In this document: in pieces, positions 1-55,100 of the stretch | Layout of the letters: the number at the start of each line of letters is the position of its first letter | How positions within the stretch are numbered: the stretch's first letter is position 1 | Assembly: GCA_030141605.1 (NCBI GenBank) | Contig: JAQGDQ010000729.1 | Coordinates: 1-64,000, forward strand | DNA from: Tubiluchus corallicola | Lineage: Eukaryota; Priapulida; Priapulimorpha; Priapulimorphida; Tubiluchidae | DNA: 64,000 nt | Reading direction: 5' to 3' | Position numbers and translations under genes: made by a program | The notes under the pieces: generated by a model | The model's input: the letters and a program-made list of their open reading frames with translations, nothing else | What the model was told of the DNA's origin: nothing | Database searches by the model: none

Positions 1-76
1 TCCCATCTATGTACCCGTCTATAATCTGTTTTATTTAGAACGATAGACCATCTTCACAACATTGTCTTTTTGACAG

Positions 77-12786
<12,710 letters not shown>

Positions 12787-13296: not shown

Positions 13297-15017
13297 CAGA
13301 CATGTGCGCATGGCCGCATGCGCACAGCAGCTAAACACACCACTGTGCTGGGCTGTAAAGCAAACAGTACTTCTCTCACGTGCTCCGGTTCCACACAAGT
13401 AAAAAAAGAACTAAAGGAAAAAGACTCATTATATTTTATATTATCGATAATATCGAGTGAAAATAGGGGTGCTGCAGTACCACAGTCAATAGTCAATAGT
13501 CATTTATTTCACCATGCACATTTACAGGTTACATATACAATATCAGTGAAAGGGCCTACAATGGATATAATACAAATAAGAAATACTGCACAGGAAAAGC
13601 CTCAAGCACTATTTACTTATACACGAAGGTAAATGTGTTGCGGGCAATCAAAAAGCAGGGCTTGTTAGATTGTCCCACACAGTGATAGAGAAAAAAAAAG
13701 TAATGGAGATAATCTGAAAATTTAAAGTGAATCGTGATAAAAAAAACGTTTAGTGCTTAAAATGGAATGATGTAATGAATGAAGCTCATATATGAGATGA
13801 TATAAAAGATAGAAAGACTATTATTTTTTAATAGTATGTAAAATTAAAATAACTTGATTAAGTTAACACCACTGTTTTGCAACTACTGTGAGGATGGATA
13901 CAGATAGAAATTTTGATTACTCACTGATACTTACTTAAAATTTGATTTTTTAGCATTATTTTAAATCTAGTAATAGATCTGCTATTTTTTGCGGATTGAC
14001 AAATCTCATTCCAGACTTTTGGTCCTTGATATATTATAAAATGTTTAGCTATGTTGGTTCTACAGTACCTACACACGAGCTTCCACTTCTCTTGTGGCAG
14101 CTGAGAACACCTCTGACGTGTTGCATCATGTACCGGGGGTGAGAGAGATGTTGCAGCTTTTTAAGTAACGAGCACGAATCTATCCTCTTGAATATTCTGG
14201 TTGCCTAACGCAGCGTGAAGCTAATTTGTTTGACACCAGGCACAGTGGGGCTAACCTGTTCGGAAGTTGATTAGCCCGATACATATTTTCGCAAGATGGC
14301 GAACAATAGGGATAACATACAGATTCATCCTGCATGGCCTTCATGTAAATTCCATATAAGCACAATATGGCAGAAATATTTCAGCCATATTTGACTGCAT
14401 TTATATCCTAGTCAATGAGTTAAACACTCCCAGAAGTGTTGCAGATGAAGCCACTTTGTATGCCAATCCATTTACTAGGTAGAAGTGGTGTTGCTTAACT
14501 TGTGCAACTAATCAAAAATAACTGGATAACACTCAATACATGCAATTCAAACATCGGCAAACATTTGCAGCTAAGCGTTCTCACAACATTCTCTAATTGT
14601 TATTTCAAGATCACGAAGGGCGTTTAAAGGTCTTCAGTCTCGTGTAATTTCAGCCTACTTATAAAAAATTACTGGATATCAGATCTGTCAAGTCTCAAAC
14701 TTTCAGTCAAGGGAGCCTTAGCTATCAATTCAGTCGCAAGTCGGACATCTTGCCTTGAATGTCTCACGGCTCGTGAGTGGTTTGACAAAGGATTTTACCT
14801 TGTTCAGTGACGGCTCGCGTATAGGTACTGTGGAACTGCAGCATACCCTATTTTCACTCGATATTATCGATAATATTAAAAATAATAAGTATTTTTTCTT
14901 TAGTTCTTTCTTTATACTTTGTACGGAACCAGAGCACTTGAGAGTAGTACTGTTTGCTTCACAGCCCAGCACGGCGCGCTCCAGCAATGCGGTGTGTGGC
15001 TGTTGTGCGCATGCGTA
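13297..15017. mobile_element. About 1.7-kb region with long inverted ends (family G)
   Basis: The left arm (13297-13490, from GCGCATGGCCGCATGCGCAC to the TATCGATAATATCGAGTGAA block) is repeated in inverted orientation at about 14800-15017. Both arms have similar short open frames, explained by the DNA match. The interior (13491-14799) has no recognised gene. It could be a foldback-type transposon or two independent copies facing each other. A further copy begins at 63925. Confidence 0.5.
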
Positions 15018-19600: not shown

Positions 19601-20828
19601 TTATAAACTACAGTAAGTCATTGCTCAACTACTCCCCATTTAGCGAAGCTTCGTTTTAACAACGCACTTTGTTGGAACCCATTAGCGTCATTAAGTGAGG
19701 ACTTACTGTGTTCAGTTTAACCAGTTTAGACGTTTGTTTCGACGAGTATCAGATCTGATATTAGTGACTAAATCTACATGTTCCACGATCCACCAGTTAT
19801 TCTCGTTAGTGATGGATGACTCGGAAGTTTTGTAATTCAATTATAATCTTGTTCTTGTAATTTGTTGTAATTCTCTAATTGTAGTTGTTATTACGGTAAG
19901 CTGCTAGCTGAATTGATGAAAAGAACAAATGATAAAAACAGCAACCGCTATGACGTCATACTGATAATGACGTTTATGACTATAAAAAGATAGTGACGGC
20001 ATTCTTTAAGAAAGAAAACAAAATTTATACTGAATTTTCATCAATTTCCTTTTCTTCTTTTTTCTTGCAATTTTTTCCATTCTTCCTTCTTCCTTTCTGT
20101 CTTTTTCCTCTCTTTCACTGCCTTTCTTTTTCTCTTCCCTTTTCTTACACTTTCTGTCCATCTCTGTCTCTCTCTCCCCCTCTCTCTTTAACTTACTGAA
20201 TTTAAGATAAAATAGCTTTCACCAAATTAAAAAAAATGTTGTTTAACCAAAAAATGCGTCGTTAAATGAAAAAAGGTGTCAAATGGTCAGCATTGTTAAA
20301 ACGAAACGTCACTAAATTGGGAGTCGAGTGTCTGTACATGGAATTTACATAGAACACAAGTGGAACTGGTGATGTACAATTGAACTTGCATAAATTTTTA
20401 TCACTTTTATTTCTGTCCTGTCTTTCGTAAACACACAGAAGTCACAGAACAAGCAGTGTTCAACTACTCTCACCTCCAGTTCTGATGCATTTCTGGCTGT
20501 TACACACACGCTTATAGTTAAAGTGACCATCCATCTCAGTCGTTCCTTGGAAGATGCTCTTAAACTGGTTCATGCCTGCATTGACGAAAGTGAGACTAGG
20601 ATCATCATGGGGTACTACGGAAGCTGATGGGACGAAGACATGTTTGCACTCGCTGACGAAGTAATCGATAAACGTGCGACGTACGCTTTGTGAGGTCCAC
20701 TGATTTGACTGACACCGGATTAAGCGATTGGCATAAACTGTACGCTTTGATACCAGTATGAGAAGAAGCTTCCATAGATTGCGTTTTGTGCATGTAGATG
20801 TCAGCACCGGTGCCATCATTTCTTTCAC
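16700..20828 (-). CDS. AARS2: Alanyl-tRNA synthetase, mitochondrial
   Basis: Two exons on the minus strand, 20474-20828 and 16700-19311, joined in phase 1 across a 1162-bp GT-AG intron; about 988 residues, close to animal mitochondrial AlaRS. It charges mitochondrial tRNA-Ala. Exon 1 begins with a basic stretch fitting a mitochondrial targeting peptide, then the class II core ([23 protein letters not shown] completed across the intron by KHNDLD). Exon 2 has [26 protein letters not shown], the editing-domain zinc site HTAAH and CCGTH, and SESGGQ. The editing site residues look intact. Three in-frame Met codons (residues 1, 4, 5) compete as start; the first was taken. A 2.6-kb exon is unusual beside the small exons of its neighbours. 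Tail-to-tail with the PAN gene. Confidence 0.93.
19611..19708. mobile_element. 98-bp Tigger-like mini-element (family E)
   Basis: Nearly all terminal repeat: begins CAGTAAGTCATTGCTCAAC and ends with the inverse of CAGTAAGTCCTCACTTAATG. Intron of AARS2. Confidence 0.55.
20033..20195 (+). repeat. Polypyrimidine tract
   Basis: About 160 bp of almost pure C and T on the + strand (purine in the AARS2 transcript), within the AARS2 intron. Confidence 0.9.
20210..20460 (+). repeat. Direct repeat in AARS2 intron (partner at 16155)
   Basis: Second copy of the 16155-16430 segment. It ends about 14 bp from the exon 1 donor of AARS2 (donor GT at 20472-20473). Confidence 0.7.
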
Positions 20829-22227: not shown

Positions 22228-22800
22228 TTTAGTAACTTTGACTGGTTACTTTTCTGATGTTAGAGAAGGAACAGTAACTTTGACTGGTTACTTTTCTGAT
22301 GTTAGAGACGGAACAGTAACTTTGACTGGCTACTTTTCTGATGTTAGAGACAGAACAGTAACTTTGACTGGTTACTTTTCTGATGTTAGAGAAGGAACAG
22401 TAACTTTGACTGGTTACTTTTCTGATGTTAGAGAAGGAACAGTAACTTTGACTGATTACTTTTCTGATGTTAGAGACGGAACAGTAACTTTGACTGGTTA
22501 CTTTTCTGATGTTAGAGAAGGAACAGTAACTTTGACTGGTTACTTTTCTGATGTTAGAGAAGGAACAGTAACTTTGACTGGTAATTTTTCTGACGTTAGA
22601 GACGGAACAGTAACTTTGACTGGTTACTTTTCTGATGTTAGAGATGGAACAGTAACTTTGACTGGTTACTTTTCTGATGTTAGAGGAGGAACAGTAACTT
22701 TGACTGGTTACTTTTCTGATGTTAGAGACGGAACAGTAACTTTGACTGGTTACTTTTCTGATGTTAGAGACGGAACAGTAACTTTGACTGGCTACTTTAC
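22228..22800 (+). repeat. 42-bp minisatellite, about 13.5 copies
   Basis: Units of 42 bp with GTAACTTTGACTGGTTAC and TTTTCTGATGTTAGAGA. Because 42 is divisible by three, one frame stays open for 210 codons as a 14-residue repeat (TGYFSDVRDGTVTL). The unit resembles the GTAACTGTGACTAGTTAC block near the end of the hAT-like element at 50180-50250, so it is probably a transposon-derived array rather than a gene. Confidence 0.93.
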
Positions 22801-25062: not shown

Positions 25063-28000
25063 CTAATTCTTATCTGTGGTTATTTCCCCTTCTAGATGTG
25101 GCTCAGTTTGTGATTTAGAAGCACCACAAGAGGATTCAGTCTCTACCTGCTGTTCCTCTGGTGATTCAGAAGTACTTGGAATGACGTCTGTCTCCAAATC
25201 AGGGTTTACCTGAGATTCAGAAGCACTCTTAGAGGTTTCAGTCTCTACCTGTTGTTCCTCCAGTGATTTAGAAGCACTCTTACCAGCTTCAGTTTCTACA
25301 CGTCGTTGACCAACAGATTCAGAAGCACTCTTAGTGGCTTCAGTTTCTACACGTGGTTGCTCAACTGATTCGGAAGCACTCTTATCAGTTTCAGTTTCTA
25401 CATGTGGTTGATCAACTGATTCAGAAGTACTCTTAGGAGTTTCAGTTTCTACACGTGGTTGATCAACTGATTCAGAAGCACTCTTAGGAGTTTCAGTTTC
25501 TACACGTGGTTGATCAACTGATTCGGAAGCACTCTTAGGAGTTTCAGTTTCTACATGTGGTTGATCAACTGATTCAGAAGTACTCTTAGGAGTTTCAGTT
25601 TCTACACGTGGTTGTTCAACTGATTCAGAAGTACTCTTGTGAGTTTCAGTTTCTACAAGTGGCTGCTCAACTGATTCGGAAGCACTCTTATCAGTTTCAG
25701 TTTCTACACGTGGTTGCTCATCTGATTCAGAAGTTTCAGCGTGTACACGTGGTTGCTCAACTGATTCAGAAGCATTCTTATCAGTTTCAGTTTCTATATG
25801 TGGCTGATCGACAGATTCAGAAGCACTCTTATCAGTTTCCGTTTCTACACGTGGTTGTTCAACTGATTCAGAAGCATTTACAGTGATATCTGTCTCTAAA
25901 GGATTTGGTAAACTTTCACCACCATCCAGCAAAGTATCTGCTACAGCAATAATCTTGTCATTATTGTCGACAGCCTCGATCCTTTCGTCTTTAAATTCGG
26001 TAGTCGATGTCGTGCAATCAACATCAGAAAGTACACTTTCCTTTGAAAGTTTTGTTTCTTCTATGTCAAACTTCGTACCATTTTTCAAAATTTTTGAACC
26101 AGTATCTGTGGCTGTTTCCTCCGTAGCTTTCTCGGTCAATACTTCTTCTGCTGATTCGGACAAACGTTTCAAAGGGGAAATTTTGGTTTCCTCCCCCGAA
26201 TCTCCTCCTCTTTCAGAGGTGCTGAATGTAATGCCAACATCAGTTTGTGATGGTAAGAACGGTTTTAGCGGTTCTGCAATCAAGTCTTGGTTTAGCATTC
26301 CAATATTGCCCTGAAACATTATTGATAAGTTTCTTAAAAAACACTAAAATCAAAATTGCTTCCTATTGTGTCTTTGCAAACCAAAATCGTCTGTAAGTCA
26401 GCACAGTTAAAATTACGTTATGATGCTTCAAAGTAGAATGCACCAAAAATTTGGGCAAATGTCAATTTTTTGTTTTTTTATAAAAACAAACGCTAAATAT
26501 ATTGGACTTTAATATTCTAGCATCAAATTGTCAAGAAAATATTCAAAAAATACTAAAAATCTAATTTTATTACCCCATACACACTTTTTTGGCTAGAAAC
26601 TAGTACTGCAATTGTAAAAAATTTGTACTTTCCAACTCCGATACTAGCTCCTGGAAGCTGTCATTTTACTTCGCACTTTTTCTGTTACCAAGCCCAAATC
26701 TTCGTCAAAAAGAGCCATCTACTGGATTTAAGCATAACTTCATTGTGTTCTTGCAAAGTCTATAGCAAGTAACATTTGTGCGGTTGCTAAGTGTTTCGTA
26801 GAAACATGACAAAAACAATGGAGCAACTTTAACACCAATTTTCTGTAGGTTATGTTTATCAGTGTGTAGCCTGCATCTCAACTTTAACGTAGATTATTAG
26901 AGGTTAGAAATAACATAGAGCAATCAACTTGGTATCAAAATCATACTCATGAAATGGAGATTCTGGACATGTGAATAACTAGAATTTCCAACTTATGGAC
27001 GATTTTTCTATGCAAGCACACATTTGTTCATGGGGCTAAATTGAAAGTCAGCGCATCAAGATTTGATATGTTTTTTAATGGTTAGTTTCCTTTTTTCTGC
27101 AGGTGTACAAATTCGGGGTAAAGGATTATTTTTATCTACTGTCACTACTAGTACTAGTGAGGCTAGTGGCAATTGTGGTAAATCTTCAACTATGTTAATT
27201 TTTCATATCAACAAATGACCAGCAAGCTACTTTCATATCATAAGAGTAAATTAGTTTATATTTATATACTAAACTATGATAGCTGCAACATACCTCACAG
27301 CAAATGTTTACAATGCAAGAACAACTAGAAAATGATACCTATGATTTATCACCATTTTGTCTTTATGTTTAAAATTATTAAAGTAAAAACCAAGTCTCTC
27401 GCGGGAAGTTCAGCTTATTTTAATATTTGAGAAAAATGTTAGAAAGTTTCAATAATAAAACTGTGATAAGTGCCTCGTGTAACGAGTAAAATAAATTTAA
27501 CATTGTGCCTAGGGACACACTTTGAGTCAGGCTTGAGAAAGTTCATTTTGAACGAAAAATGGCGTCATCCGGTTACTGTGCAATATAAACAGTTCGCCAG
27601 GTGCTTGAGTCACCTTTTCTGAGTTACTATTATCAATTGCAAACAATCCAAAATGTTAAAAGAAAGATTAATTTGTAAAAACTGTTTTTTTTTTTTTTGC
27701 TTTTTGATGAATCCAATTGCTGACTATTTAATGAAAACTCGTTAATGATGATAGTATAGTAAGTTTCAACTCGACTAGTTTGTGTCGACTAAGTAATGAA
27801 ATAGGTTAATTATTTTACCAAGCTAAATCTGAACTCTATAAGCTAAGTAATTTCAAGTTTAACATGAGAAATCAATTCTTGAGTCGTATGGGCCTAATTT
27901 CTATAATTGAAAATAACACATCCATCCTTATATTGTTTTATAGTTTCATATTTTAACACAATTCTTGTAGCAGTTGCAAAAATGGCTAACTTGGTTTAAA

Positions 28001-28138: not shown

Positions 28139-31100
28139 ACATCGTCATCATACTTTTCTCGCATCTGTTAGCTTCGCGCCATTTAACGTATTTTGTTGTT
28201 GTTTATGTCATTAATTAAGTCTTATCCATGTTGAGCATAACTCATAATTTCTTCTGCTGCGCTCATAGCACTGTAATGCACCATTAATTTGTAAATGCAT
28301 AACTTGTATTTTGTTGTATTGTGCTGGTTGGATGAACAAATAAATCTAAATCTAACCTGCCCAGCACTCTGCAGAACTCTTGCAGAATTCCATGCTTATC
28401 TGTAATTGTATATGTGTAGCATGTACTTTAAAGTATAATCGTGTGGATAATGCTATGTAAACGCTTGGAAGTTGTTACTAATTGATGTGACAGTTAGTTC
28501 TTACATAAACACAAAGATTTAATTACAGAAGGTGTCATTTATTAGACTCACAGTTAATAGACTCAATCGCTTAATTGACTCAAAAACGCCTGACACGGGC
28601 CGCTTCTATTCAAATATACATAAAAACAGTCTGCAATTGACTCAAATAACTCTGCATAATTGACTCAATATTTTTACTTCACGTGCTTAAATAAGACTAT
28701 TGTTTGTGACCAATGAGCTTTTATTACTTTTATGTCATCTTAGTCCACTATAATATCCGTAGAAACAATCATGTTAAGTACCGTTTTGTTTGTAAGCAGG
28801 GACGTTTATCATGCGCTAATATGCTACCCTAACGGTTTTGCTTTGAATCTGTTACCCAAAGAATTTCTGGAAGCTAAACATTCAATCACTTGTCTAGCGG
28901 TTTCCCGCTATCAGTTACCACTCAAAGATGCAGCCATCATACAGGCATAGTAATACTACAGATACAACCTTTGCAGTGCATACTAAGTTGATGATTCATA
29001 CTTCTATATTAGTAACACTACTTCTGTCGGTTAATAGGGTCAAAACACTTCGGTCCCAAAGTGAGTCTATTAAGCGGTCCCTACTGTAGCTAGGACAGCA
29101 GAATTTCTGAGTGAACTGAAGAAGTTGTGCTACAAGTGCATTCATGCTGTCCATTAGCCTGCGCCATTTTTTCACATATTCCCGCAGCGAGGTTCATTTG
29201 GCATGTGACAAGAATAATTTAAATTTCTTCTGCTTTTTTACGCAAGGCGTTTTACAAGCAAATATTATGTGGTGATTTCAATATTTCTTAATACAATCAG
29301 TGTTGCTTTTATCTTTCCTTTGGTTTTTCCTTTAAGAGAATGTATGAGTTAACGTTTTCTCTCCATAATTGCTACTTACCAATTTAGAGAGGTCGTGTAT
29401 TGAAACTCCTAGTATTTGTGCCGTGGTAGATTGTGGAAAAACGGCGTTCAGGCAAGACGAAAAGTATGGAAGTAATTCCAGGACAAAAGTTCCGCACATT
29501 GCCGAGAACCGATCACGCTCACGATCGGTCATCGAGCTCTCTTCAGCTCTGCAAGCAAAAGAGATGGTTTTGAAACAGGTTATTATACTTCTGCTTTGTC
29601 CGGATCTGAATAGACGAAGCTTATTTTACAGTTCTGCAGCAACAGCTGCATTTAAACATTTGCTGATCAAATCTATGACACAATTAGATAAATGTATAAA
29701 TGTCTGAAATGCAAGAAAAGCTACGATACATATGTAACTGAAATTCTTAATTATCACACAAACTGCTAGGCCTGTAATGATACATTGGTGCAGGTGATAT
29801 CTTTTGTGACGATATGTGTATCGTCAAAGTAAGCCAGTATCGTGATAATCTGAATTATTGATATTTAGCATAAGCTTGACAGCCCACTGCTAAAAACAGT
29901 GTGAAATAATTCAAGCTACAGCTGTAGAATTTGCTGTAGATACCTAGCAAGACAGAGTTTAACTCCGTGGTCACAAGTGTGCTGTTAGGGCAACATTAGC
30001 AGAGGAGCAGACTTGACCTTGACACAGGCGCCTGCTGCTAGCAGCCATCCAAAGCAAAGTGGTTGAAAGCACAATGTGTTTATATTATATAATGTATAGT
30101 ACGCTAATTACATTTTTGCTTGTAAGTTTCTGAAATAGCTTGCAGTAAATGCGGACTATAAAATGCACCACTACATGTTAAATCAAAAGGATTGAACTGT
30201 TTTGCATTTCTGATGGCTTACAATGCAAACTACAAAAGAGTATAAACAGAAATCAAACAGTTTAATGGATTATTTTAGCACTTAGCAATTTAAGATAATT
30301 TGATAAATCTAATATATATAGGAAAACACACACACACACACACAGTAGTTACATTTCAACATTAATTTAATTTAAATGTTTAGCTTATGGTACCTTCATC
30401 AGAACAAAGGAGTCGATTGAGAGAAATATTATGGCAGGCCTATTTAAAAGAACGTGTGAATGCATAAGGCGTCAAATTATGCATTGTAGACAGTGGACAT
30501 AGGCTGAACACACATGCACGCACGCACGCACGCACGTACACACACACACACACACACACACATATTGGATTAAGCAACAAATTAATATAGTTTTTTTTAT
30601 CGAGGCCGTTAACTCAATGTGTATCGTGATACATATCACATAGTGAGGTTAGTATCGTGATACATAACGTATTGTGATACATCTCGTATCGTGAGGTTAG
30701 TATCGTGATGCATATCGCATCGTGAGGTTAGTATCGTGATACATATCGTATTGTGAGGCTAGTATCATGATACATATCATATCGTGAGGCTAGTATCGTG
30801 AGGTTAGTATCGTGATACATTTTGTATCGTGACTTAGGTATATTATTACAGCATTATAAAGTGCACTTTCCAGCTTCTGTCACAAGCTGAAAGTTGTGGA
30901 TATTGAAAATGGTGAAATTATGTTGGCTTCAAAATACCACTGACGAACTCACATGATGATACAGAGCCGCAATTAATTGGATGCTGAAACCAAATTTTAC
31001 AAGCAGCAAAAGCAAAAAAGTACGAACACAGCCTGGATTTGAACCAAGGACCTTCGCTTTACAAGGCAGACACAATGATTGGTTCTTGATACTAACATTA

Positions 31101-34100
31101 TAAATAATTAACGAATGCACGAATACAGTCAAACCTCGTTATAACGCCAGGTCTGGGACACCACTAAATATGGCACTATGGCGCGGCTGGCCGCCAGGCA
31201 AGGTTCATTAAATGCGCACTTGCATATCAAAATCGTCCATAAATCGGCAATTTTCTTTATTTATTCACATATCCTGAATCTTCATTTCATGAGGATCATT
31301 TTAATACCAAGTTCATCACTCTGTGTTATTTCTAAGCTGAGATAATCCAGGTTGAAGTTGAGGTGCAGGCTATGCAGTGAAAAACACAACCTTGAGAAAA
31401 TCACTGTTAAGGTTAGCCATTGTTTTTTGTCGTGTTTCTGCAAAACACTTAGCAACCGCACAAATGTTTGAAGATTTGGGCTTGGCAACAGAAAAAAACC
31501 CGAAGCACGAGTTACTATTGGAGTTTGAAAATACGAGTTTTTTTGCAATTGTAGTGCTAGTTTCTAACCAGAAAAGTGGGTAACATAAAATTGACATTTG
31601 ACCAAATTTTTGGTGCACTCTTCTTTGAAGCAACATAAAGTAGTTTTAATTATGCCGACTTATGGACAATTTTGGTTTGCAAGCACACAAGTATCAAAGA
31701 CATTCCAGTCTGTAACCTCTATTTTGTTTCCTAGTTAATTTTAATATGTCATAAATAGTATAATATTAATATATCTACAAGAATACGTTTGTTATACTGT
31801 ACATTTTTGTTGCATTAACAGAATTAATGCATGTGTAGTTCTATGGGGGCGCATTTAAAAACTTTTAGGTAACGCATTGTGGAGTAGCTTGTGAAGTACT
31901 GGTGTCTCTTGATAAGAGAAATATGCAGCCAGGCAGACCACCCACACGCTCCCAACGTAACATTACTAGATAATTAAGCCTATAAATAGCTGCCGCATAT
32001 AACTTGGCCTTCAGTTATGGCGAGGCTGGCATTATCAAGGGGGGCTGTATAACGAGGTTCGACTATACTTGAAAACGTTTTTTTGCACGAAGTTTCGGAC
32101 TTACTTTCTGAACTTTAATATCTTTTCTCTCCATTTCACTCCTACTATTTTTATGAGTGACACTATCGATTCTCCGCCCACTCTAGTATTATTCTAATGA
32201 ATACTTACAACCCAAAGTTAATGTGAACATTAAAGGTGCGCTTCAAACGTTTTAGTTTGAATGTTCAAATTTGAACAAGTGTTTTCAGTTCGAATTAGAT
32301 TCGAACAAAAAATTATAGATTCGAATAATTCAGCACTTCAACTACATACATTCTTTATCATTAAATGTTTGAAACAGCATGCAATTAGCACAATTTAGTT
32401 TCAGTTTCTGTGCAAAATTTTTAACAAACTAATAGTGGTTTTACTGCAGAACAAAATAAAATAAAATGCATGATTTTTGTAAGACCACCTTTTACTAATG
32501 GTTCGAAAACTAGTTCGAAAATCTTTCAAACTCGATTCGAATTCGATTTTGATTCGAAATAATAAAATTTGGCTTGATTCGAATTCGAAAGTTGCAAATT
32601 CGATTCGAAGAATTTGCTTTCTACTACAGAATGCACACCTCTAGTGAATGCACCACCATAAAGTTATGCACCATATGGCAGCAAAGCCACGAAGTACTGC
32701 TCTGTTAGATACGTCACTAGACGTAAACATACCTATGATACATGAGTATAGCATCTGCTACCCTGATGAGTGAACTTTGTAGAGACAGCGCCACCTCGTG
32801 TGCAACGGAAACTGGCGCACACAAGCGTAGCTCGTTGAAAGCTGTCAGTATGTTGTTGCAGTAAACGGCAAGCGGCTGAAATTCTAACAAAGATGGAGGC
32901 GGGTGCAAAGCTTCTGATGCAGACGTGCTGCCGCCTGTCAGAATGTTAGACATGTAGGCCGCTGATCCAATAGCTAAAGTAAAGGAAGGCATTGACTGGT
33001 CGAACCTACAAGTACAAAAGTATAAAAAACAATACTACGTTTCCAGTAAAAGAAAAGAGAACGACTCGTACTCCATTTTGAAGTACGGTAAAAAAGAATA
33101 CATTTTAACACCTATAATAATGGCAAAGCATTTCTGATGATTAAATAATAGGTTAAAAGCTTAAGTAATGGTGTGCTAGCCAAACTACTGACGACATCAC
33201 AAACTAACACAATTTTCAACGGCAAAAACATTCCACGATCGTGTTTGCACGTGTTTGCAAAAGCAAAAATTGAAGCACAGTGCTATTGTACAACATTCAG
33301 TGTGATACACAAGAATTCGGCAAATTTTAAATTTAAAATTGAAATTTGAGGTTTACAGCTATGCTCACACATGAGCTCTCGAACGTGTGCACCACATCAG
33401 GACCGAACACTGCAAAGTACAGCACCTGTTTTTTGTGCAACACATTTCCGAGATGTAGGCGTTAGCGCCCGTCTAACTAACAAATGGTGAAACGCATGTA
33501 GCAGCGTAGAACTAGTGGCGCGAATGCAAAATTACCATTTGTGGTAATAATTCTTTCACGTAAGTCATTCCCGAAAAAGTATAGCATGTTCTGTTTCAAT
33601 ATTTTATCGGGTACATTGTTTTGAGTTATAGTTTAAGATTAGGTCTATGTTGATAAGTGAAATACCAAACTGTCGAGATTTTTTTTAGAGAATGGGGCCA
33701 CAAAAACAACCATGTATGTGTTTGCCTAGCAAAATCATCCATAAGACGGCATTAGACTTCTCTAGTTATTCACACGTCCTGAATGTCCATTTCATGACGA
33801 TCATTTTGATACCAAGCTCATTGCTCTATGGAATCGTTAAAGTGAGATAATCCACGTTGAAGTTGAGGTGCATGCTACATCTTGAAAAACCACAACCTTG
33901 AGAAAATCGTTGTTAAAGTTAGCCATTGTTTTTTGTCGCGTTTCTACACAACACTTAGCAATTGCACAAATGTTGATTGCTACAGACTTTGGAAGAACAT
34001 ATTGATGTTTAAATCCAGTAGATGGCTCTTTCTGACGAAGATCTGGGAGATAATATCAGTGTTTGAAAATACCAGCTTTTTACAATTGAAGAACTAGTTT

Positions 34101-37100
34101 CTAGTCAGAAAAGTGGATATGGGGTTATAAAATTACGTTTTTTAAACATTTTCTTGATAATTTGATGCTAGAACATAAAAGTCCAATATACTTGGCATTT
34201 ATTTTTACAAAAAAACAAAAAACTGACATTTGACTAAATTTTTGGTGCATATTACTTTGAAGCATCATAACGCCATTTTACCTATGGTGACTTAGGTTGC
34301 CAGGCCATAGAAACTCATGCTTCATGCCTCACGCTCATGCTTCACGTCTAAACGTGTGAGTGGAAAAATGAACAAACGTAATCTTATTTGCGGTGCGCCA
34401 TAGACCTCCGCTCACGCCTCACACTTCAAGCTTCACGACTCATGCGTGAAGCTAGAAGTGAACATGTTCACTTTTTCGAGACGTGAGTCCGGGGGCAGAC
34501 TGGATATCAGAGCGTTTTTTGACTGCAAGGTAAGCCTAAATTTGTACAATTAGCAGCCAACTAGTTCAGAAGCGTGCTGTTTGCATTGACTGAACTTTAT
34601 CAATGCTTTCGAGGTTGTTTTCTGAAATTTATTCGCCCATGCCATTCTGGGAGACCACTCCTCGTTATCAGAGCACTCCCTAGCTGGCACGACATCTCAT
34701 GGTCCTGAGGACTATTCATTTCACGATCAGAGTTAGAACGGGACATTGTGACCTAAACCTTTTCAAATTTTTCATTTTCGTTTTTCGGTTTTTGTTTTTA
34801 TTATATGGTCATGTCAGTATATCTGAAAAACATAAAATAATTAAATTTTACCCTTCAAAAACATTTTGGAATTTTTGTGTGGCCTTTCCTTTTTATTGGG
34901 GGGGGGGGGGTGTTTAGATCTACTCATGTCAGTGCATGTTTATCTGACAAACATACTTTGACTAGTAATTACCACCTGAGAGTTATGATGAGCTTTTGTT
35001 CTGCTTCGATTGGCCTCCTCCAATTTGAATGGCGTGGCTTCAGATGTCCTAGCACGAGGGACTTTAATGTACTGTAAGTCTTGTACGACATCCTTGTATA
35101 ATTATGAAATAGTTCTTCATCAGGATCGTCCACGAGGTGTTGAAATGTATGCTGAAATTCTCCTCTGGATTCTCTGAGCAAAAAATGCTCCAGGCACCAT
35201 ATTCTCCGTCTCTCTCACTTCCTTCTTCTGAGACACAACAAAATCAAGAAATCTTCCTCGTCAGATGATTCCATTTTGAATGCGCAACGCAGACTCGAGT
35301 GTGAAGCGTGAGAGCATGAGCCCCTATGGCCCAGTGGGCCGTGAAGCATGAAGTATGAAGTACGAAGTATGAAGCGTGAGGCATGAAGCATGAGTTTCTA
35401 TGGCCTGGTAGCCTTATGGACGATTTTGGTTTGCAAGCACACAATTACTTATAAGTTACTGAAACTTGACAAGCCAAAGGTACAAAAACATAAAAGAAAC
35501 AGGTGTAGTTCATAATCACCTTTTAGCCGCTTGCTCGGCTGAATGACGGAAACCTCGTACAGCTGCCTCTTGGAACAGAGGTGCAATGAGCGGCCTAAAG
35601 TCGGCACCCACGCGGCTGAAGGACAAACCGAAGTACATGCATTGACCGAGGACCGAGTCCAATCGTCCCCCCACACCCTGTTCCAGATCGCGCTTCAGAG
35701 TGGCCAGAAAGTTGGAAATCTGGAATCAGTAAAATATTATTCTAACGAGTCACTGAGCTGCCAGTGTAAATGTTATTAGGATTATGTTCCTGAAACTTTT
35801 CCATTCTAATCCATACAGCACGAATCTTTGAAGCTAATAAGCTCTTTGGCTGTCATTCTAAAGCAATAAACTTTGACGTGTAAATTTAATGTTTTTGCAA
35901 AACTTGAAAAACGACAATTTTGACATTTGACAATTTTTTATTATATACGACACGTCTCATTTTTGATAAGTGACCACAAAAGTGGCCAACTTTTGGAAAA
36001 AAGACAATTGGGCGGTTATCACTTTCTCATTTATCCGCATCCGCAAAATCCGCGAATTGAGTGAAAATTGAATATCCGCGTATCGGCAGCAAATTAACTA
36101 GGCTTGTTGCGTGTGCCTTATAATCATCTTCTTTGTATGAAGCTAGGAGTTATAATCAGGAATCATTCATAAATCACTAGCCGGACCCCAATTTTGCTTG
36201 TGAACCTTCAACGACAACTCACACAGCATGATGTAGGCCACATAGTACATCACTCAATCACATCATGCCCATCACATCACATCACAAACCATAATAGGCT
36301 GGAGTAAAAAGCTACAATATTTGTAATTATAAGCAATGTTTTGCATCTGGGACTTTCCAGGTAAAATATCAGGAAGCAGCAAAAAAGCAAGAGGCTATGA
36401 GGACATCTTAAAATAAACTAGTGATGAAAGGCGTTTAATGTTGCAACAAGCCTTTTAATGCACAAGGGAATGCTTAACAAACTGAAATTGGGTAAACTTT
36501 TTGTGCAACACTTGAAAATTTACGTTACACAAGTGGCTTTTGTATGCTGCAATTTCGCATAAAATTTGCAATTTTAGGCACTAAAAATCAGCAATCTGCA
36601 TGCCCGCATATAATTTAGTATCTGCAATCCGCAAATCCGCAAAATTAGTGCGGATTCCACAACAGCATGGCTGCAAATCTGCTATCCACCCATCTGTGAA
36701 TTAGGGACAGATAAATAATAGGATTTTTTGAAAACTGACTGATTACTGATTACAATCGAATTAAAAGTGATAAACCTAGAATGTAGAACAATGCAGATGC
36801 TACGGATAACAGAGTTTAAAATATCCCACCTTCTGATTCAACCAGCCGAAAAATATCGCACTATCTGCGACGATGTCGCTCTTTGTCGTTGATAAAAGTG
36901 GGTCCTCGTCACTAAATATCGCCCTGTACTGTGTGATTATGTCAAATAGGTGCACCCTACTGAGCTCAATTGTCTTTGTTATGTGTTGATATGCTAAAAG
37001 TAAATCACAAATATAAACAATGAGTGTTAATTAGTGACCTTGTGACCTTGTGATCTTAATATTATGCTACTGTATGAGGCTACTGAGTTGTCTACGCTGA

Positions 37101-40100
37101 CCAGACGTCACGTGACATGTACAATAATGCATGTTACCTTGCTTTTAGTGTTTTGAAGCTGTACCATACATCATATAGTCACAATAGTAAAGGATCGATA
37201 GCTCTGATATTATTGTCAATATGCATCAGGGAGTCATAATAGCAACCGACAAAAAACACGTGGATTTTTCCGCCGTAGGAAACGTGATATTTGCTTGTTT
37301 TCTAAGAATCATTTAAGCAAATACCAGTAAGAAGGTTGTAGTTATGATTTAACTTTTTTTTAAAATATTAGTGGAGCAGTAGGCCTACAGTCTATTATAT
37401 GTATAAGTTGAGTACAAGATATGTTTATTATGTAATTTTGATAAAGATGATCGATTCTGAATGAGTCATTAATTCACAAATGACTCATCTAATAATTATC
37501 TTTTAATTCATTAACCTTTAGAGTAAAATTTTCTAACACTTGTAATGACTGTTCTGTGATTCATCTATGGCAAAAGTTAACCCTTTCACTACGTAGTTGC
37601 TTTATAACAGAGCAGTTTTGCCTTTTGCTCAGTTGACAATAACTTCTTGTGGTGTGTTACTAAAACAGAATCTTGTAAATAAACAAATAGCCATTTGTTA
37701 TTAAACACTAACATTAAATATTACTTTTATTTATACAAATGCACACGCATCCGAGCACACATATATGTGCTCATGCATGCACGCACGCACACTTCCACAC
37801 ATATAAGCATGCACTTATATTTAAAAGCCAATTTTTACAAAAGCCATATTACTAATCCATTATATACAATCATTTTATAAGAATGCAGAACAATCAACTA
37901 AACATACGTTTCATCAACGATCTACAAGTGATTTTGCGTGGGAACATACTATACAATACAGTATTGTGGTATACACCTGGCGTCACATTGGTTGGTTAGG
38001 ATTACTTGTTGCAAAGCAACCACAATCCCACGGCTGTTAAACTTTTTTACAATGTTTTTGCATGGCCGAAGTAGTGAAATAGACAGACCTGGGTAACTGC
38101 GCTTAGTGCTGAGCTCGTGTGGCGGTGTGCCGCCTTCCGTAGAGAAAGAGTTAATAGGATTACTCAAATTTAAACTACTTCGTTGATTTCTGCAAAACTT
38201 TGCGGGAGAGGCACGTGAGGAGGAACAACACTTTCAATTTTGGTGCAGTTTTGGGATGTCTGGGAGAACTTATGCAAATTTAATCTACTCAGCCGATTTC
38301 TGCAAGACATTGTGGGAGGGGTGGGGCATGCGAGGAGGAACACCACCTTCAATTCTTGGTGGAGTCTTGGGACGTCCAAGAGGAACAGGGGACAAAAGAT
38401 CACTAAAATGAGCATTTTTTGCGCCATTTTTTTACGAAACTTGACGAACAGAACATAGGAAAGCAACTCATGAGGGTCTTCAGGAAGTTTGATACCTCCT
38501 TGGAAAGAGGGGAAACTGGGCTACTAAACATCTTGTACAGGATGAATGATTAGGAATTATTACTAGGTTATATTTCTGGGAAATCTCACCTGGAAGTGAC
38601 AAGGACGCTGTAAAACCATTGTCACAATATCACATCTTTGCGTTTGAAAATAAAGTGTCATTGAATCAAGTTTGACATGCAAGTTTTAGGTGAACTTATC
38701 GAAAATAAGAGAAAGCTGATTGTGGGTAACGGTGTAAAACGCGACAGTAGGAGAATTTTAACCAAAATTCAAGCTTCAAATTTACTGCCGGTGTTCACGC
38801 ATCAGATGTCGTAGGTGTGTAGTTCTTCAGAAAACTAACACATCTGAACTGAGAAGTACAGCACCTGTCTTTTGTGCAATGTGCTTTCGAAATGCAGGCG
38901 ATAGTGCCCATCTAACTAGTGAATGGTGAAATGCATGTAACAGCGGGGAACTAGTGGCGCGAATGTGAATTTGTACTTGTGTGGTAATAATTCTTTCACG
39001 TGAGTCATTTTTGAAAAACGAGTATGTTTCCTTTCAATATTTTAAAGAGTAGATTGTTTTGACCTACAGTTTAGGATTGAGTCCGGTTTTGCTTTAAGTT
39101 AAGCAGTGATGCACTACTGTAAAGTATGCTTGGCAGAGGTCACTGCTTTACTGAGTGCTTTTCCAATTATCTAACAAAACCAGAAGTCACGATACTCTAT
39201 AACTTACGATCATCAGTCCGGATGGCTGCCAGTATGCCGCGGAACCATCCGTCTCTGGCTTGAAGGAACTTGATGCGCAACTCCGGTTCGGTAAAGACGT
39301 CCATGCGCCGCAAGTAGCCAATCACTTTCAAGCAGGCTGGCAGTTGAACGTTCGTACGGAGTTGCTGAATGAGCTGGTTCAGCATGAGGGTTACAGATGC
39401 CTTGACTTCATTCACGATGTCCTGTGAAATGAGAAAATCCCTGTTAAAGTCAGCCATTGTTGTTTGTCACGTTTCTACAAACCACTTAGCAACCGCGCAA
39501 ATGTTGGTTGCTACGAACATTACAAGGGCAGATTGAAGTTATACTTAAAGTATTTTTTGCCCACTGTAATATAAAAGCACATTTATTTCATAAAACGTAC
39601 TACACCACAAGTAGTTACACAGCCTGATTTAAATATAAGAGCTATGCAAACATATGTAATTAGCAACAACCATGCAGATAATCATGCTATTAATACACCA
39701 CAAACAATTGTATACTTGAGCTCCATAATAAATAATCATATATAATCAATAATAAAGGGATGGGCAGGACTGAACTGCCAGGTTAAAGGGTCATAAGCAC
39801 TCGACAGCACACCTACGTAATCTAAATCATTATCAGTACTGTCAGTTACCATAACAACAGGGATGTTCTCATGTTTCTTCTCCAGGCGTTTAACGTAGGC
39901 AGCTAGTTCCAGCGCCTCTTCGTAATAGCCGTTACGTACGCACGTGTCTATGAGCTGTGGTACTTCTAGCACTTCTAATATCTGCGTGTGTCGACTCAGC
40001 GTCAGCGTATTCATCCGTCGACTGTAACAGTAAACGGTCATTATCCACACAAGTACTTTTAGTTTGGTAGCCATGGTCATAACAAGACAGGAGTACTTAA

Positions 40101-43100
40101 AGGGGAAGGAAAGGGAATTTTAATATCTCAAAAAACTTTCCATGTAAACTTGTATAACTTACCGTTATGCTTACCTGCTTGAAAGACTTAATTTAGGATT
40201 CCCACAGAATTTTAAAATGACTATTCCCTGACCAGATACTGATTTTCAATAACCAAGGCAAGCAGAAATGGCATTACCAGTATACATATTCAAACATTTT
40301 TGTGCGGGGACATTCTTACATATACTGATATGTAATGTATCGGCACAGTTGCAGTAGTGCTAAAGAAATTACACTAATCACATTAAATAAACTTTCTTAA
40401 TCCAATCATTATGTTTGGAATACAAAGCGAAACTGGGAGCCTGTCATAGCAAAATTTTGTTTGAACAAGAATCGCTGAAATATATGTTTGGAGAAATATC
40501 AGTTCACAGTGATTATTTTTGCAACCCTCTCCAATTTCCCTGACTTTTTGCCCCGTTTCCATCATTTCCCTGACTTTTTATCAAATTATCTTTTCCCCTG
40601 ACTTTTCCATGACTTTCCAGGATAGCCCGGATTTTCAAGGACTTTCCAGGATTTTCTCTCAACGTGGGAACCCTGAACTTATGTAAGTGGAAAAAATGTG
40701 TTAATAATTGGTAAAGCCAATTTGTAAAATATGGTTAACTCACCTTCCCAGTGTGCACCACTCACTCGCCAAGAAACCTATTTTCAATCTCACTACAAGA
40801 TAAGGCAATTTAATCTTTTACTTAGATAGTGAAGAGTATGCTACGAATGCTATGCAAACTTTAAGCAATGTTATCTAAATTTGTTTCAAATGATTTATTG
40901 TCAAAATGGCTGCATCTAACGGTCATTGTGGGAGTTTAAATTTACAAGTTTTATACAGCGTTGCTGCTAACATAAGCCCATATCCAGTAAGACAGCATGT
41001 AAGTTGTATAAAATTTCAAGATGATTTTTAAAGCTTTATGTAAATGAAAGGTTTAAGTGCTTTGAACAAAAACACAATACCAAAATTTACCACATCATGA
41101 GTATCACATCAATACATGTACTACATCTTCTGTATCACATCAATACATGTACCATATCATGAATATCATATCAATACATGTACCACATCGTGAGTATCAC
41201 ATCAGTGCATGTACCACATCATGAGTATCACATCAATACATGTACCTCATCATGAGTATCACAACAATAATGTACCACATCGTTAGTATCATATCAATAC
41301 ATGTACCACATCGTGAGTATCACATCAGTGCATGTACCACATCATGAGTATCACATCAATACATGTACCTCATCATGAGTATCACAACAATACATGTACC
41401 ACATCGTGAGTATCATATCAATACATGTACCACATCATGAGTATCACATCAATACATGTACAACATCATGAGTATCGCATCAATACATGTACCACATCAT
41501 GAATATCACAACAATACATGTACCACATCGTGAGTATCACATCAATACATGTACAACATCATGAGTATCACATCAATACATGTACCACATCATGAGTATC
41601 ACAACAATACATGTACAACATCATGAGTATCACATCAATACAAGTACCACAACATGAGCATCACATCAATACACATACCATATCATGAGATTTTGCAGTA
41701 TATACAAAATTTGCGGTGTTATGCCTGTTTATGCAACAATGCTGTGAAATAGGCTAAAACAAAATTTTTTTGACCAAAAAACTTTTTTCATCAGAAAACA
41801 AAGTTGTGCTGCGATATTCCACACACCTTTCTCTAAGTAATGTAGCTCAGATTAGTTCCTAAACAGCACAATTAGATAGCAGCTCACACATGAACAAGAA
41901 GCAAAGGAGACAAGTCATTCAGTTCAGCTTGTAGGCACTTTAAGCAAACTCATTTTTCTTTGTGAAGCTAAAACATCGCCCTACGAAGTATTGAACCTAC
42001 TGCAAACCAATCACATGTGCATTTTATTTTACATAAACTTGATCATTTTGTTATGCTAGATTTCTCAAACAACATGCAATGTTCAGCATTTAAGCAATCT
42101 CAAAAACCCATAAGATAAATCCTTGCTTAACGACTACTCGTTTAGCGATGTTTTGTTTTAATGCGCTAAAGATATGATACCTTATTCTTACTTAAAGATG
42201 CATATTTTACTCTAATAATGATTTTTTAGATTTCTCAGTCATTTTTTTATTTTATCAACAACATTGTTTCTAATTTGAAGCATTAAAAACGTACCTGTTG
42301 TATTACTAGTAATGTAAAACAATACAATTATTTACGTTTTTGCTTTCCAAACAGACTGCTAAATGCTAGTCATTTGTATAATGCGAGATCTATACATGTT
42401 GCATGAATTTTAGGAGTCTTGCCTGTAAACAGTTGCTGTAACAGCCAGTATGTAGACGAAATTATCGCAAGGTCTCCCTACAGCTTGACTTTTATTATGC
42501 AGTGTTCAACCAGTAACTGGATTAGGGTTTCAACGTTAAGGAAAGAGGAACCGCTAGCTACGTATTGGGAAGAAAGACATGTGGTTTCAAGCAAGCCGAA
42601 CGAAATTAATCATTAAAAACATAAATAAAACTCATTAAACGTTTAATTTATATGAATTAAGTATAACAGTAGGGTCGATTTTTGCTTCTGGAACGCGTCT
42701 CAGTTCTTTTACTTTACTTTCTATGGAAGTTCTGGTCTGTTTTACGATGTTTCGCTTAACAATGTATTTTGCTGTAATGCATTAGGGTAGGTAAGTGAGG
42801 AATTACAGTATCTGTAAAAAAGAAACCACGAAATTCACTAATTCACCTTGCATTAATGTCCTGTGCTTGTTTCAAGAATGTGTTGCAGCTGTCTTTGAAT
42901 TCCGGCAGCTTTTCCAGCATATTTGCAACATGCTGTTCGACCAAAGTGAACTAAAAGTAGACAAAATGCTAGTCAAAGTTAAACATAATTTAGTAAAGTT
43001 CCAGTAGCTGCACAACCATTTTCTGGAGAGTTTCCGAATGGTGGTGTTGGCAACATCACAAAATGGAAACATAGAGAGTAATTAAAAATGTATATATGTC

Positions 43101-49100: not shown

Positions 49101-52100
49101 AAATCTTAGTAAGACCAAACATTAAACTGTTAGCCACAGATAAGAACACGTCACACAATTAACCTCATTGTTTCTGGAAACTAAACATTTAATCACTTGC
49201 CCAGCCATTTGCTTTTAAACCTCCTGCTGCTATTCACAAGCTCATCACCAACTGCAGCTCAAGCATGAAGTGAATTGGTGTTTTGTGAGAATACCTGCAG
49301 CAAACAGCAACAGATGTTCAACATTTTTATCAATATCAGAATTTAAAAAAACCAACTTTTTCGTGAAGAAATGAACAACTGACTTTGAAAGAATTTTTGT
49401 AATTTTTAATGGTAATAATCAGATTTTTGCGATTTTTACTTTTTTTTATTAATTCACTTACATAAATTATGCTTCTTAAATAATTGACATTAATTCGTTT
49501 CTAAAATTCATTTAAAGCCTTTGCAATGCATACTGAGGTGAAGAGTGACTCATACTTGTATTGTAATAATATACTAAACCCTTCGGCTATTGACTCAGTT
49601 GGTTAATTGGGTCAAAACACTTCCGTCCCAAAGTGAGTCTATTAAGCGGCGTCTAACTGCAATGAGTCACATGTTTTTAGAAGTACCTTGTAACTACAAC
49701 TAGTTCGTTTTTGTTGTAACTTTTAACTGAAATAATAGTTACTTTTTTACTCTAGAATAAAAAAAAATCAACACTGAGTGCACATAAATATTGTATTCCA
49801 CCCATCATGTTTATGTAATGAGTAGATTAAGCAATTACTCTCTTCGTGCATTAACCTAGTTTCTATGTGGTCATTATTAGTATTAAAATTAGTATTACAC
49901 ATTTTCCGAGAATAAGAGTTTGATTCTAAAATGTGACGTCCCTCAAACTTTGGCACCCTAGGCTATAGCCAAGTTAGCCTATTGGTTAATGTCCCCTGCA
50001 TATAAATATTGTATTGTACCCATGATACTCCTGTTTCAGTACGGTACAATCAGCTGTTGTTGTATAGGAGTTTCTGCCGTGGAAGTGAGCAGCATGACTT
50101 CATTCTAGCGTGAAGTTTGCTGGTCTCAAGCCCACAGCAAATATGATAACTTCACGTAACAGCCACTTTTTAAACGAACCTAACTAGTTACCTTGCTGAC
50201 AGAACTGTAACTGTGACTAGTTACTTTTTTGACAGTGTAACATGTTACTGTAACGAGTTACATTTTCAAATGCAACTGTAACTGTTTACACAACAGTCAT
50301 ATTGGCTAAGGAACTATCCCAACACTGCCGGGTACATAATTAAAATATGCGTACAAATCTACTGCACTATACCACACTTTCTTCTTGTATTTAGCCTATG
50401 ATTTCAAGCAAGCAATACATGTGTGTATTGATTCAATAAGCCAACTGAGCCTATTAACCAACGGGTGTAGTATTACTGGTGTAGAAGTATGAGTCATCAG
50501 CTTAGTATGCGCTGCAAAGTCTGAATTCCTTTGTGCATGTTAAAAATGTTCAAAAAATATTTTAAAATATTAATTTATGTAAGTGAATTACCAATAAATT
50601 AAGAAGTATACTTTTCTAAATCACACAAGTCTATTTATCTGAAAAAATTCCTTCAAAGTCAGTTGCTTCATTGTCGAGAGCTTCAAAAGGAAACTGTTAG
50701 ACCAGAAATTCTTGGTAACGGAGGTTAACTGCAGTGGACGAGATGGTAACAGATTTCAAAGCAAAAGTGTTATCCTAGCGTATTAGCACATGATAGACAT
50801 ACCTGCTTAACACAAAATGGAAGTAAAGATGACATAAAAGTAGGAAAGGCTCTTTGGGCACATACAAATGTCTCATTTTAGACACTTATGCGAAGTTATT
50901 TGAATCTAAGTCTATTAATCATGAGTCTAATAAACAGTACCTACTGTACTATGAAAGCCTACGGGTCGCCTGACTACTCACGTCTTTATAAATGTCTTTT
51001 GAACATTCCGCGGTGTGAATAAACGTCTTGTAGTTATGAAATGCCAATTCCTGCGTTTGTTCCGTAACCAGAGCCCGTTCTTCCGACAGTCTCTCGGGTT
51101 CTCTCACTAAACGAACAAGTAAGTTCAATCAAGGGGGAAGGCAGTTCACAGGCACCAGAGAGAGGTAAATCTTAGAATCTCAAAATTAACACGGAAATAA
51201 TTTTTAACGGATGATTTTGACTAAATAATTAAAAAAATTCTATAATAAATGAACTTTTTAAGAGCTATCTTTAAATTGGCAAAAGAAACATTTTTTTCAT
51301 TTCTTTATTGTTATATTCTTTTAAATCTCAGAACTACAATAAATAGGCCTACTCTAATAATATACGTGCGCTAGCAAACTAAAACCGTCCATAAGTCGGC
51401 ATAGTTGAAACTAGATTATGATGCTTCAAACTAGAAGGCACCAAAAATCTGATCAAATGTCAATTTTCCGTTTTTTGTAAAAACAAACGCTAAATAAATT
51501 GGAGTTTTATGTACTAGCAACAAATTATCAAGAAAATGTACAAAAAATACTAAAAATCTAATTTTATAACTCCGTGCTCACTTTTCTGAGTAGAAATTAG
51601 TACTACAATTGCAAAAAACTTTTAAATTAAAACTCCGATAGTAGCTAGTGGAAGCAGTCATTTTGCTTTGAGTTTTTTCTGTTGCCAAGGCCAGATCTTC
51701 ATCAGAGAGAGCCATCTACTGGATTTAAACATAACTTCAATGTGCTCTTGCAAAATCGTACCAACCATGCACTTATACGGTTGCTAAGTGTTTTGAACAG
51801 AAACAACAAAAAACAATGGCTAACTTTAACAGTGATTTTCTCAAGATTATGTTTTTCAGTGTGAAGCCTGCACCTCACTTCAATAGATTATCTCAGCTTA
51901 GAAATAACATAGAGTGATGAACTTGGTATCAAAATGATCCTCATGAAATGGAGATTCAGGATACATGGATAACTAAAAAAGCTTAATGCCGACTATGGAC
52001 GATCCTGCCATGCACACATATAATGGATGTCAAGCATATTAAAATCTTTTAATAATACAAGGCAAGGAGTAACATTAACTACCAAAAAAAAAAATCAAAC

Positions 52101-55100
52101 TGTTTATATTGATTTATATTGTCAATATTAGCTTAGGTTATTTACCAAGTTTCTTGACTCCCGACGAACAGAGTTCCTGTAAATACAACGAGAACTCTGC
52201 ACTGTCTCTCCATGAATCTGAAAACGAAACGTATTTTTAAAAATTATGTTGATTTAAGCATTAAAATTATTTTAAAAAAAGCAGGTTTGCCAAGTGGTGG
52301 TGAAACCAGATCTGAATGGATGCAGCTTGCCGAACTTCAGGACACATGGTCAACTTTTGCCACCTAATAAAAAATTATTCAGCTGCAGTCGACAAGAAAA
52401 ATCGAGGTTGATGCAACACTTTACAGAGCTTGCTCACATCTCAAATAGATATCAGTTTAGTTAGTTTAAACATAATTTATTATAGTTTATTATGAATATA
52501 GCCCAGGCAAGCTTCGAAAATGTCTATGTGCGCTTTAACTGTGAAGTTCATTTCAAAATGACTGACTTTTTACACGTCTCAGGGTCTAAGGTTCAAATCC
52601 TGTCTGGTTCCTAAATTTTCTTCAACTTTTTAAGCAGAAAACTTAAAGTGCAGCTGTACAGTACAGCCAAAAGATTACAGTTTAAAACAAATATGTTTTT
52701 GAAATTAGCCTTTACGTTTTTGTTTATTAGAAGGGAAATAACGTGAAAAGCTGGAACAATTAACGTTCCACTACCGAAAAGTCAAATTCCTGAATCTTTT
52801 TGAAGGTAGTACCTATTTTTTCCCTTTTACTTAAAAAAATGAAAAAAATTCTAAACAAATTGGGACTTGAACATGAGACACTGACATGTCTAAAAAACAT
52901 TCTATTTCTTTATTGCTTCCGATATCTTAGTTTAAACATTTTATTATAGGATTGGATCAGACAGTTTGAACAACATGATTTAGGATCCTCACCACAACAG
53001 TCTATACACACTATTTACAAAAACATTTACAGTAAGAATTGACTATAACTACACAAGCTGTCAAGTTTTACTGCAAGATTACATTAGACATTAGTAGAAA
53101 ATGATATTTAGAATATGAATATTTAAGACAGATGGATTTCATATCAGATAGAAACTACTGGAAGCATTTAGTACACGTGTAATATAAAGTCATGTATGCA
53201 TTGGAATATTTTAAGAATATAAAAGACAGAAAGGCCTTGACAAAATTTAGAACTCGTGCTCATCAATAAGGAGTTGAAACTGGTAGATACGTAAGACCAT
53301 CTATTCCATGTGAAAATTGAGTTTGTAATGTTTGTAATATTGTTGAATGACGAATGCCATTTTTTATTATACTGCTCAAGACACAATGTTGCACGTAACT
53401 TTATGTTGAATACAGTTTCTCAGTGTGTTCTACTTTTAATGCTTTAACCTGAAAATGAAAAATTACTTTGTTTGATGCAACCAGAAAACACTGTTATACA
53501 ATGTGCAGTGGAAAAATTTACAAGAATATGAATGTAATCAATTGTATGAAATGTTTATTATTATTTTGATCGGCCCTGTTGGCCATATGTCAATAAACTA
53601 TCTATCTATTGTATGAAATGTTAATTATTATTTTGATTGGCCCTGTTGGCCATATGTCAATAAACTATCTATCTATTGTATGAAATGTTTATTATTATTT
53701 TGATTGGCCCTGTTGGCCATATGTCAATAAACTATCTATCTATTGTATGAAATGTTAATTATTATTTTGATCGGCCCTGTTGGCCATATGTCAATAAACT
53801 ATCTATCTATTGTATGAAATGTTTATTATTATTTTGATTGGCCCTGTTGGCCATATGTCAATAATCTATCTATCTATCTAACTATCTACAATAAAAACAA
53901 ATTAAATCGACACCCATAATAGGTAAACAACCTTATAAACAAACACTCATTGGATCTTTATAATTGGCCTATTTTGACTTTGTCAGTTACTGATCGTTCG
54001 ATGTCCTCTTCTTATTTTTCTCTTCTCTTATTTCTCTTTTTGTAAGGAACTAAAACACCATTTCCGCCAATCAGTGTTTGTTACACACATCTTTATAAAC
54101 AATGCCGGGCCTCTGAATTTTCCATTTCGAAATTGACCAAATTCCAGGTCAAAGAATTGTCAACTCTGATTCACAGAAGTGAGAAACTACATGGTTCAAT
54201 AGCTAATTTTTATCATCAAATAAAAAATAAACTACAGTAGGTGCCACTTAATAGACTCACTTTGGGACCGAAGTGTTTTGACCCAATTAACTGACTGAAC
54301 CTATGAACCGATGAGTGTAGTATTACAGGTATAGAAGTACGAGTCATCAGTTTACTATGCACTGCAAAGGCTTTTAATGAATTTTAGAAACAAAGTAATG
54401 CCTAAATTCCTTTGTGCAGTTAAAAATTAGAAAACACGTTTTAAAATATTAATTTATATAAGTGAAATAACAATAAATTTAAATGTATACTATTTTAAAT
54501 CACAGACTTTTCTAAGTCTGTTTATTTGCAAAAATGACAAAAATTCCTTCAAAATTGGCTACTTCATATTCCCGCTAAGAAGTTGGCCCACAAAGTTCTT
54601 GTAATTATAAAAACGTTGAAAATCTGTTGTTGCGCGTGACTAAAACAGTTCTAAACCACCTGCTCACTTACACTGCCCTTATTTGCTGTACGATATTTAC
54701 TCTTGTAAGTCACAAGGAATACCAACTGATTACTGTACCTGCATCTTTGACTGTTAACTCATTAAGCCTGAAAGCATGAAATGAGAGCATCAGAAGGAAA
54801 CCGCTAGGCAAGTGATTAAATGTTTAGCTTCCAGAAATTCTTTAGGTAACAGTGGGCGAGTGGGTAACAGATTCAAAAACAAAACCGCTACGCTGGCGTA
54901 TTAGCGCATGACAAACGTGCCTGCTTATAAACAAAACGGTACTTAACATGATTATTTCTGCATACATATTGCACAAAAGGGAAGTAAAGATGACATAAAA
55001 GCCGGAAAGGCTCTTTCGGTACATAAATATGTCTTATTTTAAGTAGGTGAAGGAAAAAATTGAGTCAATTACTGGCAGTTCTTATGTATATTTGAATCTA

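Follow-up and report, generated by a model that had tools for sequence, protein, structure and literature searches.

The 64,000-nt window analysed here (Tubiluchus corallicola, contig JAQGDQ010000729.1, below also C650) raises the question of whether a tandem array at the end of a COG8 gene is really part of the encoded protein and, if so, what selection has acted on it. COG8 is a lobe-B subunit of the conserved oligomeric Golgi tether. From sequence comparison, we consider it likely that a length-variable coding minisatellite has enlarged an existing disordered COG8 tail, with selection on the reading frame and no detectable hold on the residues of the repeats.

The COG8 gene lies on the minus strand, with 11 exons from 56099 to 25063 (2829 bases, 942 aa), and reads as complete. 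All 10 introns have GT donors, AG acceptors and matching phases. The encoded protein carries the Dor1 domain (Pfam PF04124, residues 43-377) with E=4.6e-123 and 410.8 bits, against a cut-off of 23.3. Human COG8 served as the query for tblastn (matches listed up to E=50) and matches all eleven exons in order, exons 1, 2 and 11 weakly. The numbering of the human sequence is consistent with the human variants Y537X and F563HfsX4 as given in an excerpt of PMC7369703. Exon 1 (56012..56099, on the minus strand like all others) has its ATG in CGCCACCATGG context and a GT donor of fitting phase; its match to human COG8 is weak (E=12). Exon 2 (52146..52217, E=0.13) has AG/GT boundaries and a fitting phase, and AG/GT boundaries are also found for exon 3 (50982..51106, E=1.2e-11). 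Exon 4 (42847..42950, E=5.6e-4) is part of the gene model and is identical in a second copy of the gene (see below). Tblastn, the gene model and the second copy agree for exons 5 (39850..40021), 6 (39208..39421), 7 (36830..36993), 8 (35520..35719), 9 (32733..33005) and 10 (29380..29548), the last of which ends with ...LSKL in phase 0. Exon 11 (25063..26310) follows in phase 0 after the acceptor TTTCAG and codes for 415 residues and the stop. Neither the COG8 body nor exon 11 has a relative among solved structures at E up to 1. The gene model can be read from the DNA itself, and COG8 is presumably expressed from it.

Exon 11 is contained in an open frame of 426 aa (26343..25063, minus strand, stop to stop) and consists of three parts. 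It begins with a C-terminal stub of 22 residues (26245..26310, minus strand), the counterpart of human residues 538-559. The tblastn match of this stub (E=2.5) is weak alone, is in the right place and frame, and is the sole match covering human 538-559 among the matches listed (E up to 50). A non-repeat acidic stretch of 122 residues follows (25879..26244, minus strand). The remaining 271 residues are the repeat region with a short end, most of it a coding minisatellite with 16 units of 51 bp, corresponding to 17 aa (25075..25878, minus strand). TRF reports the 51-bp unit in 13.2 copies (25214-25876, 84% matches), while codon reading of the array gives 16 units, with a 12-bp loss common to one adjacent pair and with strongly diverged last units. 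The sequence-only reading had described the last COG8 exon as running on in frame into about 16 repeats of a 17-mer, and the frame, the splice phases and the 16 units confirm this. It had also described a 415-residue acidic tail made of 17-mers. Length and acidity were correct, but the tail is not all repeat, since it includes the 22 residues of the stub and the 122 non-repeat residues. With a unit longer than 6 bp (51 bp), present in many copies (16) within a coding exon (exon 11), the array is of a known kind, a coding minisatellite (VNTR), here in a subunit of the COG tether.

Among the 415 residues of the tail, 99 are D/E, 38 are K/R and 111 are S/T. The charge-hydropathy distance is -0.075 and -0.332 for two parts of the tail and +0.193 for the body. 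The tail, which is net negative, falls on the disordered side of the charge-hydropathy line and the body on the folded side, so that the composition suggests a disordered tail. Pfam assigns no family to exon 11 at E up to 1.

The assembly (343.5 Mb, 2344 contigs) was searched, and contig C2195 carries a second copy of COG8 exons 4-11, collinear, with gaps, with the window from 48676 to 14531. Exons 1-3 are outside the comparison because C2195 begins inside a retroelement in intron 3. This is a gypsy-like LTR retroelement (44428-49155, minus strand) with a 1361-residue open frame (RT, RNase H, integrase) and flanking repeats of 212 bp that are 99.5% identical; the part covered by C2195 is present in C2195 too. 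Exon 11 of the second copy (C2195:20944-22548) codes for 534 residues and has 23 units (22 full ones and a shorter last one), in frame and with the same non-repeat part. The tails differ by 119 residues, a net difference of seven units (16 versus 23), and their net charge per residue is nearly equal (-0.147 and -0.142). The array in C2195 contains four consecutive two-unit blocks of 102 bp each that are nucleotide-identical, and both unit types of the block are present five times each without difference. Thus, the expansion of this array is recent.

The reading frame is maintained between the two copies. In 1248 aligned bases of exon 11, there is no small frameshifting indel. Intron 10 and the 3' flank have 27 of these in 4976 aligned bases, so that 6.8 would be expected in exon 11 (P=0.001); the rate from all 8 noncoding segments (49 in 15053, summed from segment counts) gives an expectation of 4.1 (P=0.017). 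When the rate of intron 10 and the 3' flank is applied to the parts of exon 11, 4.4 are expected for the repeat part (P=0.012) and 2.3 for the non-repeat part (P=0.096). Multiples of three make up 20 of the 69 small noncoding gaps between the copies. As several frameshifting indels were expected and none is seen, the frame has been kept. This comparison indicates that selection keeps the exon 11 frame open; the gap counts depend on the alignment, and frame keeping within the array may partly reflect homogenisation of the units.

The residues behave differently along the protein. Between the copies, exons 4-10 have 1 nonsynonymous and 11 synonymous changes in 432 codons (P=1.5e-6 against neutrality). 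Outside the repeats, exon 11 (144 codons including the stub) has 8 and 7, respectively, which is fewer nonsynonymous changes than neutral (P=0.036) and differs from the 1:11 of exons 4-10 (Fisher P=0.019). When the non-repeat tail is pooled with five paired units near the array end, 17 of 25 changes are nonsynonymous, and neutrality is not departed from (P=0.20). The constraint on the non-repeat tail thus appears weak in this comparison. For the repeats, no constraint is detected. The five paired units have 9 nonsynonymous changes and 1 synonymous change, and the first 12 units of the window copy show 25 distinct changes, 7 of them synonymous, in line with the neutral share of 0.24-0.28 (7 of 28 when units of both copies are pooled). 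Codons free of nonsynonymous change number 6 of 17, against a simulated mean of 5.2 (P=0.39). The charge-changing share of nonsynonymous changes is 0.56 versus 0.44 expected, so that charge is not protected site by site. Selection on the repeat residues was thus sought in the synonymous share, the codon distribution and the charge changes, none of which departs toward constraint. A pN/pS of 0.67-0.70 among units, considered as a sign of weak constraint, was set aside since shared changes are counted many times. Within the reach of these tests, the repeat residues appear to drift freely. The earlier argument that repeats staying in frame suggest selection on the protein therefore holds for the frame, which is kept across copies seven units apart, and is not borne out for the residues, as the synonymous share is neutral.

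Minisatellites elsewhere in the genome (L030 (G000:C1542), L026 and L027) are open over 320-562 codons, and in L030 two frames are open simultaneously. They are open by repetition alone, and a long open repeat by itself is therefore no evidence for coding. The absence of stops among the units was discarded as evidence: the probability of no stop ranges from 0.004 to 0.41 depending on the units taken and the counting used, and it was therefore left out. The case for coding is instead built on three observations, from the non-repeat part, from the splice phase and from comparing the two copies. It is conceivable that COG8 transcripts use another last exon or stop before the repeats, in which case the array would be an untranslated minisatellite with an accidental frame. 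The open minisatellites elsewhere would be in line with this, as would the low third-position GC of exon 11 (0.23, versus 0.44-0.66 in exons 2-10) and one antisense frame that is also stop-free over the 122 non-repeat codons (score -1.8). However, third-position GC is likewise low in exon 1 (0.24), the stub with its singular match begins exon 11 in phase, and no frameshift separates the two diverged copies. The 122 non-repeat codons lack a stop and have a positive codon score in the sense frame only, out of six, whereas none of 4851 intron windows of the same length (overlapping) is free of stops. Over its full 415 codons, exon 11 has a coding score of +89 in the sense frame and negative scores in the other five. 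We regard an accidental frame as improbable and predict that the COG8 coding sequence really ends with exon 11. When exon 11 was compared with the whole genome, 13 matches were obtained, 3 in the two COG8 copies and 10 elsewhere at 21-27% identity. Five of the loci elsewhere were viewed: L026 and L028 (one place), L027 and L030 are tandem repeats, and L029 has no open frame of more than 150 residues. A further match place, on C1131, has an open frame of 780 residues. As for the relationship of the copies, C2195 and C650 might carry paralogous COG8 genes with unequal tails, originating from a recent segmental duplication, rather than alleles. COG6_N and COG7 are each found once in the assembly, which is consistent with paralogy. 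The same holds for the switch of homology at 14531, where the shared block stops: window positions 14531-48676 correspond to C2195:32290-1, but positions 1-14500 to C1895:71795-86183. C650 thus joins two loci at this point, by rearrangement or by chimeric assembly. On the other hand, a second copy also exists for the part to the left of 14531 (91-99% identity in longer collinear pieces), exon 3 has a single match among the 9 matches listed, and both COG8 copies are near contig starts, overlapping there like unmerged haplotypes. Paralogy is therefore doubtful in our view, and C2195 is quite probably the other haplotype, left unmerged at contig ends.

The position of the tail can be related to the human protein. 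Human Y537 presumably aligns with the last residue before exon 11, and Y537 and F563 would flank the counterpart of the stub (538-559). In human COG8, the region from residue 537 is at the same place, after the LSK and EPL..LP segments; this human tail has 76 residues and is not known to contain 17-residue repeats, while the tails found here have 415 and 534. The repeats of the Tubiluchus corallicola protein lie beyond the stub. In the excerpt of PMC7369703, two COG8-CDG truncations are described, Y537X (76 C-terminal residues lost) and F563HfsX4 (47 lost), and Y537X is said to affect the COG8-COG1 interaction. As Y537X removes 76 residues, the statement that typical animal COG8 ends soon after the conserved region is too strong, for human at least. 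Findings that speak against a vital role of this end come from an excerpt of PMC4935880, according to which COG8 lacking residues 537-614 is predominantly Golgi-localised, GNL binding in knockout cells is reduced by C-terminally truncated COG8, and the first 136 residues of human COG8 are enough for the interaction with COG1. In the counterpart of this COG1-binding part, the alignment is clear for exons 3 and 4 and weak for exons 1 (E=12) and 2 (E=0.13). The available text of PMC2927914 mentions that alignment ends were sometimes trimmed because they aligned poorly, a step of most consequence for COG5 and COG8; a variable tail would be in keeping with this.

The repeats might also be under selection as a functional module that alters vesicle capture by serving as a repeated platform for phosphorylation or docking, with the number of units tuned by selection. 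This would agree with the S/T-rich acidic composition, with the kept frame and with the similar net charge of both copies. It would also agree with the disease caused by human truncations in this region, where losing 76 residues is described as affecting how COG8 interacts with COG1 (PMC7369703, in the part available). The phosphorylation platform had been suggested by the sequence-only reading, but the repeat part shows no enrichment, with 19 CK2-like sites versus a mean of 20.0 in 5000 shuffles and 5 S/T-P sites versus 5.6. Thus, nothing singles out phosphorylation. A neutral synonymous share among the units and the charge-changing share of replacements (0.56 versus 0.44 expected) also speak against such a module, as do the results in the excerpt of PMC4935880, where human COG8 without residues 537-614 is predominantly on the Golgi and C-terminally truncated COG8 lowered GNL binding in knockout cells. 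We therefore hold a selected module to be unlikely. Most likely, a disordered C-terminal end that already existed has been enlarged, to a variable length, and this is tolerated; any effect would stem from bulk length and charge. One might speculate that the repeat number segregates in the species and acts as a quick knob on the Golgi tether, affecting its reach or the association of lobe A with lobe B, and thereby glycosylation, with only length and charge under selection. We give this a slim chance.

For the enlargement that we favour, exon 11 would replace a shorter, human-type COG8 tail with a long, acidic, disordered one, lengthened by the 51-bp minisatellite. The array would grow and shrink through slippage or unequal exchange. 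Because the unit corresponds to 17 codons without a stop, units may be gained or lost without breaking COG8. If the tail acts at all, it would most likely do so through bulk properties, being long, flexible and negatively charged (net charge about -0.15 per residue in both copies), possibly as an electrostatic or entropic fringe at the COG8 end. Tandem arrays with a period of at least 10 and at least 4 copies cover 5232 of the 64000 bases of the window, and thus minisatellites are common here. They are found in 14 rows (some overlapping), one of which is in COG8 coding sequence. A noncoding 42-bp minisatellite (22231-22798) has 13.5 copies, versus 7.3 in the second copy (C2195:24809-25114), so that length variation between the copies is not confined to the coding array. 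At 39430-39549 and at six more places in the window there is a dispersed repeat (about 75-120 bp, 80-88% identity between its copies), one copy of which starts about 9 bases from COG8 exon 6. COG8 is adjoined by a coding exon on the minus strand (18000-20700, open over 18000-19310), which is putatively alanyl-tRNA synthetase-like.

The locus illustrates that, in a genome rich in minisatellites, a conserved protein can be extended by an array whose unit length is divisible by three. There is a single residue change in the 432 codons of exons 4-10, yet the tail has 415 or 534 residues in one genome. As the tail sits just past the place of human truncations that cause a glycosylation disorder, nature here provides a test of whether the bulk length and charge of a tether's end are important.

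Among the papers found in one literature search on COG8, tandem repeats and the Golgi, none, judged by title, deals with a repeat-tailed COG8. The heptad of the C-terminal domain (CTD) of RNA polymerase II subunit Rpb1 is well conserved. This domain is also a long, unstable coding repeat at a C-terminus; unlike in this domain, no residue-level constraint is seen in the COG8 units. According to an excerpt of PMC7341143, the coding region of the Rpb1 CTD is unstable and the CTD is essential. Protein repeats are reportedly often located at sequence flanks and enriched in disorder-promoting residues (PMC7230257, as excerpted). Coding minisatellites (VNTRs) likewise have an in-frame unit, copies that differ in length, disorder-promoting residues and a location at the protein end. 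What sets the present array apart from other coding VNTRs is its host protein, a subunit of the COG tether.
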